The notes below the pieces were generated by a model. The model was not told the DNA's origin and did not search any database. It saw nothing but the letters and a program-made list of their open reading frames with translations. From assembly GCF_900110505.1 (NCBI RefSeq), contig NZ_FODZ01000004.1, positions 1 through 64,000 on the forward strand: a stretch of 64,000 nt of DNA, given 5' to 3'. Position 1 is the stretch's first letter. Each line of letters starts with the position of its first letter. Shown piece by piece: positions 9,614 through 15,623 of the stretch. Source of the stretch: Luteibacter sp. UNC138MFCol5.1. GTDB lineage: Bacteria; Pseudomonadota; Gammaproteobacteria; Xanthomonadales; Rhodanobacteraceae. Both the position numbers and the translations under genes were made by a program.

Positions 9614-11233
<1,620 letters not shown>

Positions 11234-11332: not shown

Positions 11333-11422
11333 GGAGAGATGGCCGAGTGGTTTAAGGCAGCAGTCTTGAAAACTGCCGTAGGTGTAAGCCTACCGTGGGT
11401 TCGAATCCCACTCTCTCCGCCA
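11333..11422 (+). tRNA. tRNA-Ser (anticodon UGA)
   Basis: The acceptor arm GGAGAGA (11333-11339) pairs with TCTCTCC (11412-11418), followed by G and encoded CCA (11420-11422). Anticodon stem GCAGT/ACTGC encloses loop CTTGAAA with anticodon TGA at 11367-11369. A long variable arm (about 11377-11393) and the TTCGAATC T-loop confirm a type II serine tRNA. The 3' half of tRNA genes is a common integration site, and integrase remnants begin 70 bp downstream. Confidence 0.97.
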
Positions 11423-11491
11423 GACTGATTTTATGTAATCAGTAACTTGCAAGAGTCGTGCGGAACCGCCATCGGGACACAAGAGTCCCTT

Positions 11492-11740
11492 ATGCGCATC
11501 CCACACTATCTGGTCAGGTCCCCGAGCGGCGCTTACCGCTTCCGGCGGAGAATTCCCGCCGTGGTGGCCAGACTCTTCGAAAAGCAGGCCATCAAGAAAC
11601 CCCTGCTGACCCGCGACGTCAACCTCGTGTATGACCTCGCCCTCGCACTTTGGCGGCAGATAGGGGCATTGTTGAATGCCTTGCGCAGGCTTCCGCGCTC
11701 CTCCGTGCCTGACGAGGTCACCTTTTACTGCCAGTGGTGA
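11492..11740 (+). pseudogene. Truncated tyrosine-recombinase integrase (N-terminal domain only)
   Basis: The frame starts MRIPHYLVRSPSGAYRFRRR and continues through IKKPLLTRDVNLVYDLALAL, which matches the DUF6538-type N-terminal domain of tRNA-targeting phage/island integrases. It stops after 82 residues. The core-binding and catalytic domains with the R-H-R-Y residues are absent, so it cannot be active. It lies 70 bp after tRNA-Ser, the expected place for an island integrase. The 3' end overlaps the convergent DGQHR gene by 23 bp, so the deletion fused the two. Confidence 0.75.
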
Positions 11741-12959
11741 GATTGAGCTTTGCCCTGATTTCCCGTGATATCAGGCTACGCCCCGAGCCCGACGCATTGA
11801 ACCTGTCCTCATTGAAATCGATGTCGCCAGCGGGACGAAGGCGATCTCTGAACCAGCTGGTTGCTATGGTCCCCTCTGCCAGGGCTTCCGGAATCAGCAG
11901 TCGGAGCACATCAAAGAGGGCCTGCACGCCGACCGTGCGCGTGATGAAGGAATCCGGCTGCTTCTTCCAGAACTCCTCCTTGCACGCCGACAGGAAGTTG
12001 AATGCGATGGTGTAGATGAGAAGGTCGTTTCCCTCGATGAACGCCGGTCGCAGGGGTGAGTTGTCCTTGCGGAAACGCTCAAGCGACGAACGCGGTTTGC
12101 GCTTGCCTGCGAGCATCTGAGTCGCGTCCCGGCCTGGATTGGACGAGTACAGGCGGGAGATGCCCTGGACCACGGTTGCGGTCGACACCCTCCACAGTTT
12201 CTCGTTCGTCAGGGCTTCAAGTGCCTTGTCTTTCTTCGGGGCAATGATGATGCGCTTAAACAGCGGGGAATCCTTCTCGACGGCCAGACGCCTGCTCAGG
12301 AACACTGCGAGCTTGTCAGGCGTCCACATCTCCGGTTCCTCGTCGAGGACGTTATAGCCGAACTGCTCATAGGTGAGGCTCTTGTCGACCGGCTTTTGCG
12401 TAGAATTGATGATGGCAAAGAGCTGCGCCTGAAACGGTTGTGGCAGGTCGAGGAAGATGGCGCAAACGAGCCCCATGTGGTCGACCGCATCGACAGGCGC
12501 ACGTGCGAGGCCAAAGAGCCGATGCTGGCCGTCGATGATGTTGGCCATCTTCCTGTCGCTCGGAATCGTTAGCTGGAATTGCCCAGCAGGGCCTTCCACG
12601 ATGGACCATTCATCGCCGTCATCGAGGTCCTCAGCGTCGTCGCTGGCATTGGCAACAGTATCGGCTCCTTCAGGAAGCTGTGGCGCGTTGCCGGCCAGGA
12701 TGATGGCGTTGGGAAAGGCGGCATCGACCCGGCTCACGTATTTCGCAATGGCTTCCAGGCGGGGCATCTGTGCCGCTCGCTGGGTGCCCGTGATGGTGTA
12801 CTCGTTTTTCTTGGACGAGTACCTGGCAGAGAGACGGTCACTGTAGGCCACATCAAGGACCACGGCCGCGGGAAGCGAGACGATGTAGAAGATGCCCAGG
12901 GGCTGGTCGACGCGCAGTGCGGTGGTGACGAAGGGGTAAGTCGGCCTTTTCATGGTCAT
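11718..12959 (-). CDS. DGQHR-domain protein (DndB-like)
   Basis: 413 residues. The diagnostic motif sits in ANIIDGQHRLFGL (DGQHR 143-147), and AIINSTQKPVDKSL follows, as in DndB/DGQHR-family proteins. Known members include DndB, the repressor of DNA phosphorothioation (dnd) operons, and other ParB/sulfiredoxin-fold-like proteins. An acidic insertion (about 105-118) precedes the motif. The start ATG 12959 overlaps the stop of the upstream membrane gene (ATGA), so it is the last gene of a coupled minus-strand operon that began with a cysteine desulfurase. The C-terminus abuts the integrase junction and may be altered. Confidence 0.8.
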   Translation of the reverse strand: MTMKRPTYPFVTTALRVDQPLGIFYIVSLPAAVVLDVAYSDRLSARYSSKKNEYTITGTQRAAQMPRLEAIAKYVSRVDAAFPNAIILAGNAPQLPEGADTVANASDDAEDLDDGDEWSIVEGPAGQFQLTIPSDRKMANIIDGQHRLFGLARAPVDAVDHMGLVCAIFLDLPQPFQAQLFAIINSTQKPVDKSLTYEQFGYNVLDEEPEMWTPDKLAVFLSRRLAVEKDSPLFKRIIIAPKKDKALEALTNEKLWRVSTATVVQGISRLYSSNPGRDATQMLAGKRKPRSSLERFRKDNSPLRPAFIEGNDLLIYTIAFNFLSACKEEFWKKQPDSFITRTVGVQALFDVLRLLIPEALAEGTIATSWFRDRLRPAGDIDFNEDRFNASGSGRSLISREIRAKLNLTTGSKR

Positions 12960-13477
12960 TTCGTCTTCAAGCCGCTGAGGGTGCCCGGCAACTCGGCTGC
13001 AGCCGCGTCGGCCGGCCCGGTGGCCGGCGGGATTGGCTCGTCAAATATCTCAGTGTTCTCGGCGTTGGCAATCCACCAGACCCAGAGCGCCGCGTTCGAC
13101 AGGACTATTTGCGCAACGATTGCACTGGTTGACGTGGCATTGCCAAACGCCACGCAACAGGCGGCAAAGATAATCGTCATCAAAAGGCCGAAACCCCGCA
13201 GAAATTTCGGGACGGTCTCGTTGAAGATGAGCTGGGCCGCAGCGGCACAACCCAGCGAGGGATAAAAGACGTTGACGGCCAAACGCAGGCTTTCTGTCTT
13301 CCATTCGGTCGCGTCCATGGCACGGTAGAGTTCGACCCAAATGCCAAGGCCGGCTGTTATGACGACGATGGCGGCGAACAGCAGAAAGCTCGGACTCTTG
13401 AGTGGCAGGAGGGTGCGGTCCCTGAACGTCCGCCGCAGGCGCTTCCAATGCCCGTCGTGGGGCCGCTCTTCACTCAT
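12956..13477 (-). CDS. Four-helix membrane protein of unknown function, island operon
   Basis: 173 residues, family not recognised. A basic cytoplasmic start (RLRRTFRDR) precedes four hydrophobic segments, about FLLFAAIVVITAGLGIWVEL, VFYPSLGCAAAAQLIF, FGLLMTIIFAACCVAF and IVAQIVLSNAALWVWWI. A short Pro/Ala-rich tail follows. ATG 13477 is chosen because GAGG lies 8 bp upstream; a GTG at 13483 would add two residues. The stop overlaps the DGQHR gene start, implying coupled expression. Confidence 0.65.
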   Translation of the reverse strand: MSEERPHDGHWKRLRRTFRDRTLLPLKSPSFLLFAAIVVITAGLGIWVELYRAMDATEWKTESLRLAVNVFYPSLGCAAAAQLIFNETVPKFLRGFGLLMTIIFAACCVAFGNATSTSAIVAQIVLSNAALWVWWIANAENTEIFDEPIPPATGPADAAAAELPGTLSGLKTK

Positions 13478-13541
13478 CTGCACGACCTCATCACGGCGTC
13501 CCTCTCCAGAGTCGCGATGAAATCAGCAAATTCTCAGCCGG

Positions 13542-14615
13542 TCAATCGGCGCCCTCGGCCCACCTTGCCGCCTTGGCCGACCAGCGGGTTTGTGAGTGGT
13601 ACAGCCGCTTGTAGTCCCGCTCGATGAGCAGGTCGAGGAGCCTTGGATAGACGGTCGAGTAGTTGGCAACCCAGGACGCGTCGGCGTTGCACTGGGCCCG
13701 CTCGAAGATCTCCTTCAGGACCCGCTGGTGGGCGAGGTAGACAGCGATGTGGGCGCCGAGCCAGGTGCTCCTCGGGTCAAGCAGTCCGCCGTTTTTGTGC
13801 AGGTGGTCCGCCAGGAGGTCGCCCGTCGACACCATCTCCCCGACGGTCGACATGAGGTCGGGATAGGTGTTCTTGACGAAGGCCATCTCGTCAATGAGCC
13901 GGAACCCACGCGCCGGCACGTCCCTTCGCTTGATGACCAGTCGTCGTTCGCGCCCGCCTCCTTCAAATTTCAGGGTCGCGCCGCCGTCCGCCTTCCAGCT
14001 TGCCAACAGCCGGTGGTCGAACTCATCGCGGAGCACACGGATTTGCGAGAGCAGTACGCGGAAGGGACCATAGAACTCGTTGAGCTGCCGGGTGCGGAAC
14101 GCCTGAAGGTTGGCCATGGCCTCGAGCCCGAAGTCCCGCTCCGCCTTTCGCATCTCGCGCACAGCACGGCGCTTGTCGGCGTCCTTCTCGGCCTTGAGGC
14201 GCCAGCTCTGCAGGATGATGCCGAACAGTCCGGTGACACCGGCACCGGCGAGAACACCGAGGAACCCCATTTTTGCAGCGAGCCATTTGTCGTCGCCGGC
14301 CCCGGCCAGATGGTCGAGGCTTTTACTGATGCCCTCAAGCTCCTTGTGGAGGTCATGGGCGACGGCATTGAGCATGGCATCGCTTACCGGGCGGTCGCCG
14401 GGGAGTGCGGGTGTCGCCAGCAATGACGCCTTCGTCTGGGTCACCGGCATGGGCACCGGGGTTGGCGCAACCGGGGCGGCGGCCGCACTCGAGGCTTGGG
14501 CGGGAGCCGTGGTGTTGCCTCGGGATTGGCCGTCGGGGGCCTGCGCACAGGCCATCGTCGACCCGGCAAGACCGAGGATGAGGGCGGCCGTGCGTGCAGT
14601 GGGTAGGGTGCTCAC
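13542..14615 (-). CDS. Membrane-anchored protein of unknown function, island operon
   Basis: 357 residues, not recognised. It has an N-terminal signal-like segment with ACAQ (possible but poor lipobox), a low-complexity Ala/Pro region (about 35-75), a second hydrophobic helix (LGVLAGAGVTGLFGIILQSW) and then a charged coiled-coil stretch (KAEKDADKRRAVREMRKAE). A mixed helical C-terminal domain rich in Tyr/Arg ends the protein. The GTG start at 14615 overlaps the TGA of the cysteine desulfurase fragment (GTGA), so translation was coupled. This predicts a membrane-tethered partner for the island system; function is unknown. Confidence 0.65.
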   Translation of the reverse strand: MSTLPTARTAALILGLAGSTMACAQAPDGQSRGNTTAPAQASSAAAAPVAPTPVPMPVTQTKASLLATPALPGDRPVSDAMLNAVAHDLHKELEGISKSLDHLAGAGDDKWLAAKMGFLGVLAGAGVTGLFGIILQSWRLKAEKDADKRRAVREMRKAERDFGLEAMANLQAFRTRQLNEFYGPFRVLLSQIRVLRDEFDHRLLASWKADGGATLKFEGGGRERRLVIKRRDVPARGFRLIDEMAFVKNTYPDLMSTVGEMVSTGDLLADHLHKNGGLLDPRSTWLGAHIAVYLAHQRVLKEIFERAQCNADASWVANYSTVYPRLLDLLIERDYKRLYHSQTRWSAKAARWAEGAD

Positions 14616-15088
14616 AGGCTTCTCAGCGTCCCAATGCCGTCAATGAGGGCGGTGGCCGCCAAGTCGATGTCGGCTTGTGTGGTCAGTCGTCCTGGTGAGA
14701 GGCGGAAGGCCTGCCGGCTTCGCGGGGAGTCGCCCCACATGGCAAGCAGCACATGGGAGGTGACAAATGACTCTGTAGAACACGCGCTCGAGGCCGAGAA
14801 GGCGACCGTCTCCCGCAGGAGCCGCATGAGGGCCAAAGGTTCGACGCCGTCGATGGACAAAGAGAGGTTGCTGGCAAGGCGCCCGGTCGCGTGCCCGTTG
14901 ACGGCCACGCCGGCAACGTCGGCGACAAGGCGATCCCGGAGACGGTCCCGGAAGGCGGTCACGCGCGCCTGGTCGGCCTTCCAATCTCTGGCGGCAATGG
15001 CCATTGCTTCGCCAAAGGCGACTACGAGGGGGGTATTGACCGTTCCGCTCCGCAGCCCCCTTTCCTGACCGCCGCCCCAGCTCAGGGC
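14612..15088 (-). pseudogene. Cysteine desulfurase (IscS/DndA type), 5'-truncated
   Basis: On the minus strand the frame opens at about 15088 with LSWGGGQERGLRSGT, the strongly conserved GGGQERxxRSGT segment of NifS/IscS/DndA. It continues past the catalytic cysteine loop SASSACSTES and the FRLSPGRLTT segment to a normal C-terminus. The N-terminal half, including the PLP lysine, is missing because the sequence switches to an unrelated efflux gene at about 15088. These enzymes supply sulfur from cysteine; in dnd/ssp islands they feed DNA phosphorothioation. Here the gene headed a coupled operon and is now broken. Confidence 0.85.
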
Positions 15089-15089
15089 G

Positions 15090-15623
15090 GCGAGTGTCGG
15101 CGTCGCGCGGGCGGCGTTCTATCCCACCATCAGCCTGGGTGTTGCGTTGGGTTGGCAGGACGTGGGGCACGGCAATCTCCTGGCCGCCAGCAACGAGTTC
15201 TGGAGCCTTGGGCCCTTGGCCTCGCTCAATCTGTTGGATGGTGGCGTGCGTCGCGGGCGCGAGGCGGAAGCCAAGGCGGAATTTTCGGCAGCCTCAGCCC
15301 AGTACCGCGGATTGGTGCTGCATGCGTTTCAGCAAGTCGAAGACAACCTGTCCTTGATTCAGGAGTTGGGCCGGGAAGGCCAGCAGGAGATGGCAGCGGC
15401 CGACGCGGCCAAGCAGTCCGAGACCTTGGCGACCAACCGATACAACGAGGGCGTCGTCAGTTACCTCGAGGTGGTGACGGCGCAGACCGCGGCGCTAAAG
15501 GCGCAGCGTACGGCTGAGTTGGTGCGCACCCGGCAGCTCCAGGCAAGCGTCGATCTGATTCGTGCACTGGGCGGAGGATGGCGCGCCGCTGCGCAAGACC
15601 AACCGCAGGTCAGCGCACGCTGA
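15090..15623 (+). pseudogene. TolC/OprM-type outer-membrane efflux protein, 5'-truncated
   Basis: From about 15090 the frame reads ASVGVARAAFYPTISLGVAL, a hallmark stretch of RND-type outer-membrane factors. It continues with coiled-coil helices (YRGLVLHAFQQVEDNLSLIQ), RYNEGVVSYLEVVTAQTAAL and the usual end DLIRALGGGW. About the first 300 residues, including the signal peptide and lipobox, are absent. It is joined head-to-head to the cysteine desulfurase fragment, so both genes lost their 5' ends in the same rearrangement. Confidence 0.88.

Follow-up and report, generated by a model that had tools for sequence, protein, structure and literature searches.

Gene content of the locus

In the window, the 64,000-nucleotide stretch of Luteibacter sp. 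UNC138MFCol5.1 analyzed here, four minus-strand ORFs form a block between position 11718 and ~15097, bordered by a tRNA-Ser gene and by half of an efflux gene (Table 1). The preliminary description had reported four tightly arranged minus-strand genes, and the ORFs, their order, their overlaps and the gaps were all confirmed. The start of the 357-aa gene overlaps the stop of the desulfurase gene by 4 bases (GTGA) and the 175-aa gene overlaps the DGQHR gene, also by 4 bases (ATGA). The gap between the 357-aa and 175-aa genes (13484-13541) is 58 bp, or 64 bp if the ATG at 13477 is used as start. Based on homology to intact dndA, the desulfurase fragment extends to ~15097 and not only to 15088.

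Table 1. Features identified at the locus (positions in the window).
Feature	Position	Strand	Details
tRNA-Ser, TGA anticodon; left edge of variable region	11333-11422	+	ARAGORN
Short ORF (97 aa), DUF6538 match, read as 5' fragment of an integrase gene	11447-11740	+	PF20172, residues 21-81
DGQHR protein (DndB-like, near TIGR04172 DGQHR_dnd_1)	11718-12959	-	ATG start; 413 aa; intact ORF
175-aa membrane protein, proposed DGQHR partner	12956-13483	-	GTG start, or ATG at 13477; intact ORF
357-aa protein, one hydrophobic segment	13542-14615	-	GTG start; intact ORF; no family match
DndA-type cysteine desulfurase, C-terminal 161 residues, 5' part gone	14612-15097	-	PADLOC DndA 6.2e-40
RND-efflux outer-membrane gene (NodT/OEP family), 3' half only	15097-15623	+	TIGR01845 positions 297-460 of 460

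Homology to same-genus stretches ended at window positions 11422-11449, at or just after the tRNA-Ser, in all four stretches that were fetched. The short ORF that follows matches DUF6538, which is presumably a marker of integrases. When an attachment-site repeat was searched for, the 25-base 3' end of the tRNA-Ser was found only once in the 64 kb (allowing up to 3 mismatches), and therefore the right-hand end of the island was not located within the window.

The DGQHR protein matched TIGR04172 (DNA phosphorothioation-associated DGQHR protein 1) over its full length (positions 2-380 of 381) with 417.8 bits, which is under the curated cut-off of 450 bits. The dnd-adjacent protein of G844, a genome of the same family, is also under this cut-off (424.7), whereas one from E. 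coli is over it (476.2). The DGQHR domain TIGR03187 was clearly recognized (168.3 bits, cut-off 58.85), and the DGQHR motif at residues 143-147 is invariant in 9 rows of the alignment. This domain is shared with the dnd regulator DndB (TIGR03233), to which DGQHR1 showed a moderate profile match in an N-terminal stretch of 160 columns (82% probability, E 1e-5). However, DndB proteins form a separate group in the tree (100/100) and G844 carries both genes in one run. The window protein falls inside the dnd-linked set (99/99, ten-row group), apart from the proteins linked to methyltransferases. For DGQHR1 no PDB sequence match was obtained at E up to 1. Two AlphaFold2 models, one from a two-row alignment and used for the question of a ParB/Srx fold, the other from a single sequence, had mean pLDDT values of 33 and 39, too low to be of use. 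The ParB/Srx fold of the DndB-like DGQHR protein is taken here from excerpts of PMC4619093 and PMC10853773.

In a Kyte-Doolittle scan, the 175-aa protein showed three hydrophobic segments; no credible match to it was found in Pfam, PADLOC or NCBIfam. The 357-aa protein contains a single hydrophobic segment (residues 117-135) behind an Ala/Pro-rich N-terminus. The designation of both as membrane proteins in the preliminary description is thus correct only in part. The 357-aa protein had no family match in Pfam, PADLOC or NCBIfam and its best match to a solved structure had an E of 0.059. A counterpart was found only in G844, and no relatives were present in the plasmids or viral contigs searched. 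At the order level (398 genomes), matches besides its own were limited to weak ones to the Ala/Pro-rich N-terminal part in two genomes, which were taken as chance, and at the phylum level (339 genomes) only the window's own protein was matched.

Correspondence to a complete dnd operon

In G844 eight genes form one gene run, in which dndB-C-D-E-A is followed by the genes for the 357-aa, 175-aa and DGQHR proteins. The last four genes of this operon correspond to those of the window in the same order and with the same 4-base overlaps, with protein identities of 77% for the DGQHR protein, 44% for the 175-aa protein, 61% for the 357-aa protein and 77% for the desulfurase piece, which represents residues 225-385 of G844 DndA. 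Between the counterparts of the four genes pN is well below pS. Judged from the sequence, the four-gene block is real, as the score of the DGQHR protein and the same-order counterparts in G844 exclude chance. Of the G844 operon, dndB, dndC, dndD, dndE and the first 224 codons of dndA have no counterpart in the window. The SGHK stretch, located before residue 225 in the G844 protein, is not part of the remaining DndA.

The break could be placed at a single position from both sides, since homology to dndA runs up to 15097 and homology to the efflux gene starts at 15097-15099. From 15099 on, the efflux fragment has 88% identical DNA in a genome of the same genus. In profile searches of the window's genome (16 contigs, 99.98% estimated completeness), neither dndC (TIGR03183) nor dndD (TIGR03185) was matched, while both models matched in G844. 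An assembly artefact in a strain that holds a complete dnd operon would be in line with the number of contigs and with a break that sits between two interrupted genes, but after a misjoin the other operon genes should normally turn up on one of the contigs, and at this completeness no contig carried a dndC or dndD match, which makes this explanation very unlikely.

A functional DndABCDE system would not be expected, as DndC and DndD were not matched in the genome and only part of the dedicated cysteine desulfurase remains; DndE is absent from the locus. Other class-V aminotransferase matches occur in the genome, and substitution by a host desulfurase would therefore be possible in principle. 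When Ssp models were used, the sole match was the desulfurase fragment (SspA 3.6e-39 vs. DndA 6.2e-40).

The block thus shares gene order and overlaps with a fuller operon and is broken inside a dnd gene. Very probably, it is what remains at the 3' end of a dnd (DNA phosphorothioation) operon, with the order dndB-C-D-E-A followed by the 357-aa, 175-aa membrane and DGQHR1 genes, that lost its main enzymes. The full operon in G844, the break at ~15097, the lack of dndC and dndD matches in the genome and the tRNA-Ser with its integrase-like fragment together point to a relic. This supports the link to dnd loci made in the preliminary description and its alternative that the block is a relic of one. 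Its main reading was a membrane-associated variant of a modification or defence system, with membrane proteins substituting for dndC/D/E. The window by itself indeed shows exactly such a gene set; however, since both tail genes lie downstream of dndBCDEA in a single G844 run, dndB to dndE are missing in the window and not replaced. With the desulfurase cut and its first 224 codons gone, this variant is least probable of all, and replacement of dndCDE by the membrane proteins was rejected. Among the loci examined, none combined an intact desulfurase and these homologues with a lack of dndC.

The dnd operon was probably gained horizontally at the tRNA-Ser. Subsequently, dndBCDE and the 5' part of dndA (224 codons) would have been lost in a deletion or rearrangement that broke the DNA at ~15097 and joined the remainder to the interrupted efflux gene, with the left end abutting the integrase-like fragment. 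No phosphorothioation would be expected in this genome, and the DGQHR, 175-aa and 357-aa ORFs, all intact, are likely stranded and probably poorly expressed. Counter to a relic, these undamaged ORFs could likewise be explained by a function that was kept or by a loss that happened recently.

Small membrane protein genes next to DGQHR genes

Homologues of the two tail proteins do co-occur elsewhere with DGQHR or desulfurase genes, so that the refuting condition set in the preliminary description did not hold. The 357-aa protein recurs in G844 between dndA and the membrane and DGQHR pair, and in dnd loci the gene immediately ahead of the DGQHR gene encodes a homologue of the 175-aa protein. Besides the window, 14 dnd-linked loci were examined, and all of them have dndC on the same record and a small membrane gene immediately 5' of the DGQHR gene. 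Among 12 annotated plasmid loci, selected for holding a DGQHR gene like that of the window, 11/12 DGQHR genes had a small membrane neighbour, compared with 1/99 other same-strand pairs. The loci counted had been chosen for resemblance to the DGQHR protein of the window, and near-copies (H5, H10-H12, H18-H20) were excluded. E. coli was counted once, with the hydropathy scan from L079 and the dndC annotation from L087.

In related loci with a methyltransferase nearby, a small membrane gene directly precedes the DGQHR gene in five of seven, a count that takes in Zymomonas (Dam two genes away) and a phage (methyltransferase directly upstream). In these five (Rhizobium B230/85, Roseateles XES5, Acinetobacter TR3, G657 and G1197) the arrangement resembles that of the dnd-linked loci, but no dnd genes were seen nearby. 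When 15 further loci were scanned, a motif-bearing ORF was present in 14, and a small membrane neighbour in L032 (G657) and L069 (G1197). The other 12 had none, and some lacked an upstream ORF within reach; the 310-aa upstream ORF of L018, with 5 segments, was not counted as a small membrane neighbour. The pairing is not universal, since directly upstream of the DGQHR gene no small membrane gene was found in Burkholderia glumae, where a transposase gene is located, nor, judged by annotation, in Agrobacterium S7/73, Zymomonas pZZM405 and Acinetobacter phage MD-2021a. In Lactiplantibacillus pCD033 the upstream gene encodes 273 aa. No profile similarity was found between the methyltransferase-linked and the dnd-linked membrane proteins (0.9% probability), leaving their homology unsupported, and homology between the two dnd-linked sets was weak and local (68%).

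The methyltransferase-linked loci bear on whether the 357-aa, membrane and DGQHR genes were kept as a working dnd-independent system, acting alone or with another host modification enzyme. All three ORFs are intact, the five loci combine a related DGQHR gene and a membrane neighbour with adenine methyltransferases, and one of these genomes, G1197, has no dndC match. However, the window protein groups with the dnd-linked set, no methyltransferase gene lies directly beside the block and at its 5' end the remnant continues into antisense sequence of the efflux fragment. Moreover, the one minus-strand promoter-like match lies inside the 175-aa gene (13071-13044), and a single match does not exceed what shuffles yield (mean 0.6, sd 0.8). 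Such a system is therefore unlikely, though less so than a misassembly.

Possible role of the pair

For the complete operons, the most likely, still tentative, suggestion is that the small membrane protein and its DGQHR neighbour act as one unit, to which gene position and hydrophobicity point. The small partner might anchor the DndB-like, ParB/Srx-related DGQHR protein to the inner membrane, where the DGQHR protein could sense DNA or nucleotides or act on them, and might adjust the modification system or serve as its backup. The pair is proposed to be an accessory of DNA-modification systems that is ParB-like and tethered to the membrane. Somewhat more doubtful is the broader idea that the two genes, encoding a small multi-pass membrane protein and a DndB-like DGQHR protein, form a portable membrane-tethered module that has become associated with dnd as well as with adenine methylation and whose target at the inner membrane is incoming or modified DNA, with the window holding a stranded copy; for the methyltransferase group, the term module is an argument from gene position.

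With these results, the false lead of a dnd system without dnd enzymes is removed and a testable one takes over, namely a little-noticed membrane and DGQHR pair that is also found next to DNA-modification genes elsewhere among bacteria. Should the pair be a membrane-anchored component of such systems, dnd control or defence would in part operate at the membrane.

For E. coli dnd islands, excerpts of PMC4373003 report that 1 to 3 hypothetical proteins are encoded between dpt and dnd and that they are restricted to dnd-positive genomes, and in these excerpts no membrane partner is described. In the texts of PMC10853773 and PMC11662687, searched for 'membrane' and 'transmembrane', none is described either. 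In one E. coli dnd strain (L087), the slot between dpt and dnd is occupied by the membrane and DGQHR pair. The DGQHR gene of the E. coli locus L079 looks interrupted. DNA matching the E. coli pair was detected in 123 of 5426 E. coli genomes.

Genes and boundaries of the window block

The four minus-strand open reading frames that the preliminary description had read as an operon with features of DNA phosphorothioation (dnd) loci, possibly a membrane-associated variant of a DNA-modification or defence system or a relic of one, could be recovered together with their ATGA and GTGA overlaps (see table). The DGQHR protein matched the DndB-like family TIGR04172 (DGQHR1) over its whole length with 417.8 bits, below the curated NCBIfam cut-off of 450, and the DGQHR domain TIGR03187 with 168.3 bits, above the cut-off of 58.85. 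For the desulfurase piece, DndA was the top PADLOC match with SspA as a close second. The 175-aa and 357-aa proteins gave no credible Pfam, PADLOC or NCBIfam match.

A tRNA-Ser and a 97-aa ORF, whose DUF6538 match stops near 11690, stand before the block, and its far end abuts an efflux outer-membrane gene of which the 3' half is left. Homology to dndA extends to 15097, and homology to the efflux gene of two same-genus genomes begins at 15097 and 15099. The equivalent of DndA residues 225-385 is retained; the SGHK stretch in the DndA of G844, a genome of the same family, precedes that part, and in this protein family its lysine binds PLP. In the whole window genome, no match to dndC or dndD was found. 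Sequence common to the window and same-genus 20-kb stretches ended at or just past the tRNA-Ser (11422-11449) in all four stretches fetched, and therefore this site is variable. The dnd islands of E. coli are described as tRNA-linked and mosaic (PMC4373003). We conclude that the window locus is a relic.

At 9620-10000, upstream of the gene at 9953-11233, near-identical stretches (16 protein letters, not shown) recur in the ORF translations and resemble short dispersed repeats.

The membrane-DGQHR pair in dnd-linked loci

Among 233 same-family genomes, the window DGQHR protein found matches in five, its own included. The closest relative was that of G844 (77% identity), and the remaining three showed 29-39%. 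In G844 the gene sits in an eight-gene plus-strand run of dndB, dndC, dndD, dndE and dndA (NCBIfam), which ends with counterparts of the 357-aa, 175-aa membrane and DGQHR proteins. Its dndA and DGQHR proteins score under the curated NCBIfam cut-offs and the other four over theirs. The dndA/357-aa and membrane/DGQHR genes overlap by 4 bases in G844 and window alike, and for all four genes pairwise pN (0.14-0.36) was far under pS (0.62-0.73). An extra DGQHR/DndB-like gene (426 aa, minus strand) lies ∼3.6 kb before dndB of G844.

In six annotated plasmid loci and one Pseudomonas locus, a 171-185-aa protein encoded directly 5' of DGQHR1 aligned with the window 175-aa protein (BLASTP E 1e-27 to 3e-4, database size set by hand), and a similar gene takes this position in two further genomes (G910 and G1110). 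In the more distant dnd-linked loci (G1127, E. coli, Aliivibrio, Pseudoalteromonas) the same slot codes for a protein of 157-228 aa, in which 3 or 4 hydrophobic segments were seen. Thus, counting G844 and excluding the window, in all 14 dnd-linked loci examined, selected by similarity to the window DGQHR protein, the gene immediately upstream of DGQHR1 encodes a small membrane protein. All 14 records also contain dndC, at ∼23 kb in G1110 and ∼11 kb in Pseudomonas. In the 12 annotated plasmid loci, selected in the same way, a membrane-type upstream neighbour (same strand, 150-240 aa, at least 2 segments by a crude hydropathy scan) was present for 11 of 12 DGQHR genes, compared to 1 among 99 other pairs of adjacent genes on one strand.

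The DGQHR gene of E. coli dnd islands spans two annotated pieces and looks interrupted in 11 of the 15 rows listed of 123 records; other islands carry a whole gene. Many listed rows annotate the membrane partner as 'accessory gene regulator B family protein'.

A ProPhylo table from 2011 ties a DGQHR protein to dnd genomes in 7 of 7 cases (PMC3226654). In the open literature on DndB-like proteins, on dndB with membrane proteins and on dptH-dndE, the titles and abstract openings listed contained no description of the membrane-DGQHR pair, and no open paper on 'accessory gene regulator B' was found. In the text of PMC10853773 the words 'transmembrane' and 'membrane' occur a single time each, the former in the title of a reference; PMC11662687 has neither word.

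DndB of Salmonella is reported as a regulator binding the dnd promoter (PMC4507180), Rakesh et al. place DndB in the ParB superfamily, members of which can have NTPase and nuclease activity (PMC10853773), and GmrS/DUF262 proteins are described as sharing a related motif, with a predicted ParB/Srx fold (PMC4619093). On these grounds, the DGQHR protein may act on DNA or nucleotides while tethered by its membrane partner.

DGQHR loci near methyltransferase genes

Among the related DGQHR loci examined, seven lie close to a methyltransferase gene, with no dnd genes seen around them, and in five of these a small membrane protein is encoded directly upstream of DGQHR. None was found there in Zymomonas pZZM405 and Acinetobacter phage MD-2021a.

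Coordinates of window genes and fetched stretches, and features of methyltransferase-linked DGQHR loci
Feature	Position	Membrane neighbour	Enzyme genes
Window DGQHR	11718-12959		
Window 175-aa membrane protein	12956-13483		
Window 357-aa protein	13542-14615		
Window desulfurase (dndA) piece	14612-15097		
G844, extra DGQHR/DndB-like gene	L035:2917-4197		
E. coli, DGQHR gene in two pieces	L079:8458-10137		
E. coli, whole DGQHR gene	L087:9578-10738		
Rhizobium B230/85		+	MT-A70 and BglII-type nuclease, few genes off
Roseateles		+	Dam
Acinetobacter		+	annotated adenine methylase and BglII-type nuclease
G1197		+	D12-class enzyme
G657	L086:6720-9303	+	D12-class enzyme
Phage MD-2021a	L091:5138-7047		methyltransferase

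Phylogenetic analysis of 25 DGQHR proteins placed the five methyltransferase-linked ones with a membrane neighbour in one group (99/98); the dnd-linked proteins formed a weak group (73/55), with DndB outside. Relatedness between the membrane proteins of the two kinds of loci was not detectable. The membrane-DGQHR pairing thus recurs beyond dnd, and the likeness of the membrane partner seen here is one of position.

In G657, a genome of the window's family, D12 methyltransferase, membrane protein and DGQHR genes form a compact run with an integrase and a dus gene near. This run is possibly an adenine-methylation counterpart of the pair. The DGQHR protein of the phage had a very long branch and its placement in the 25-protein tree was unsure; in the phage, the methyltransferase gene is followed directly by DGQHR, with no membrane gene between.
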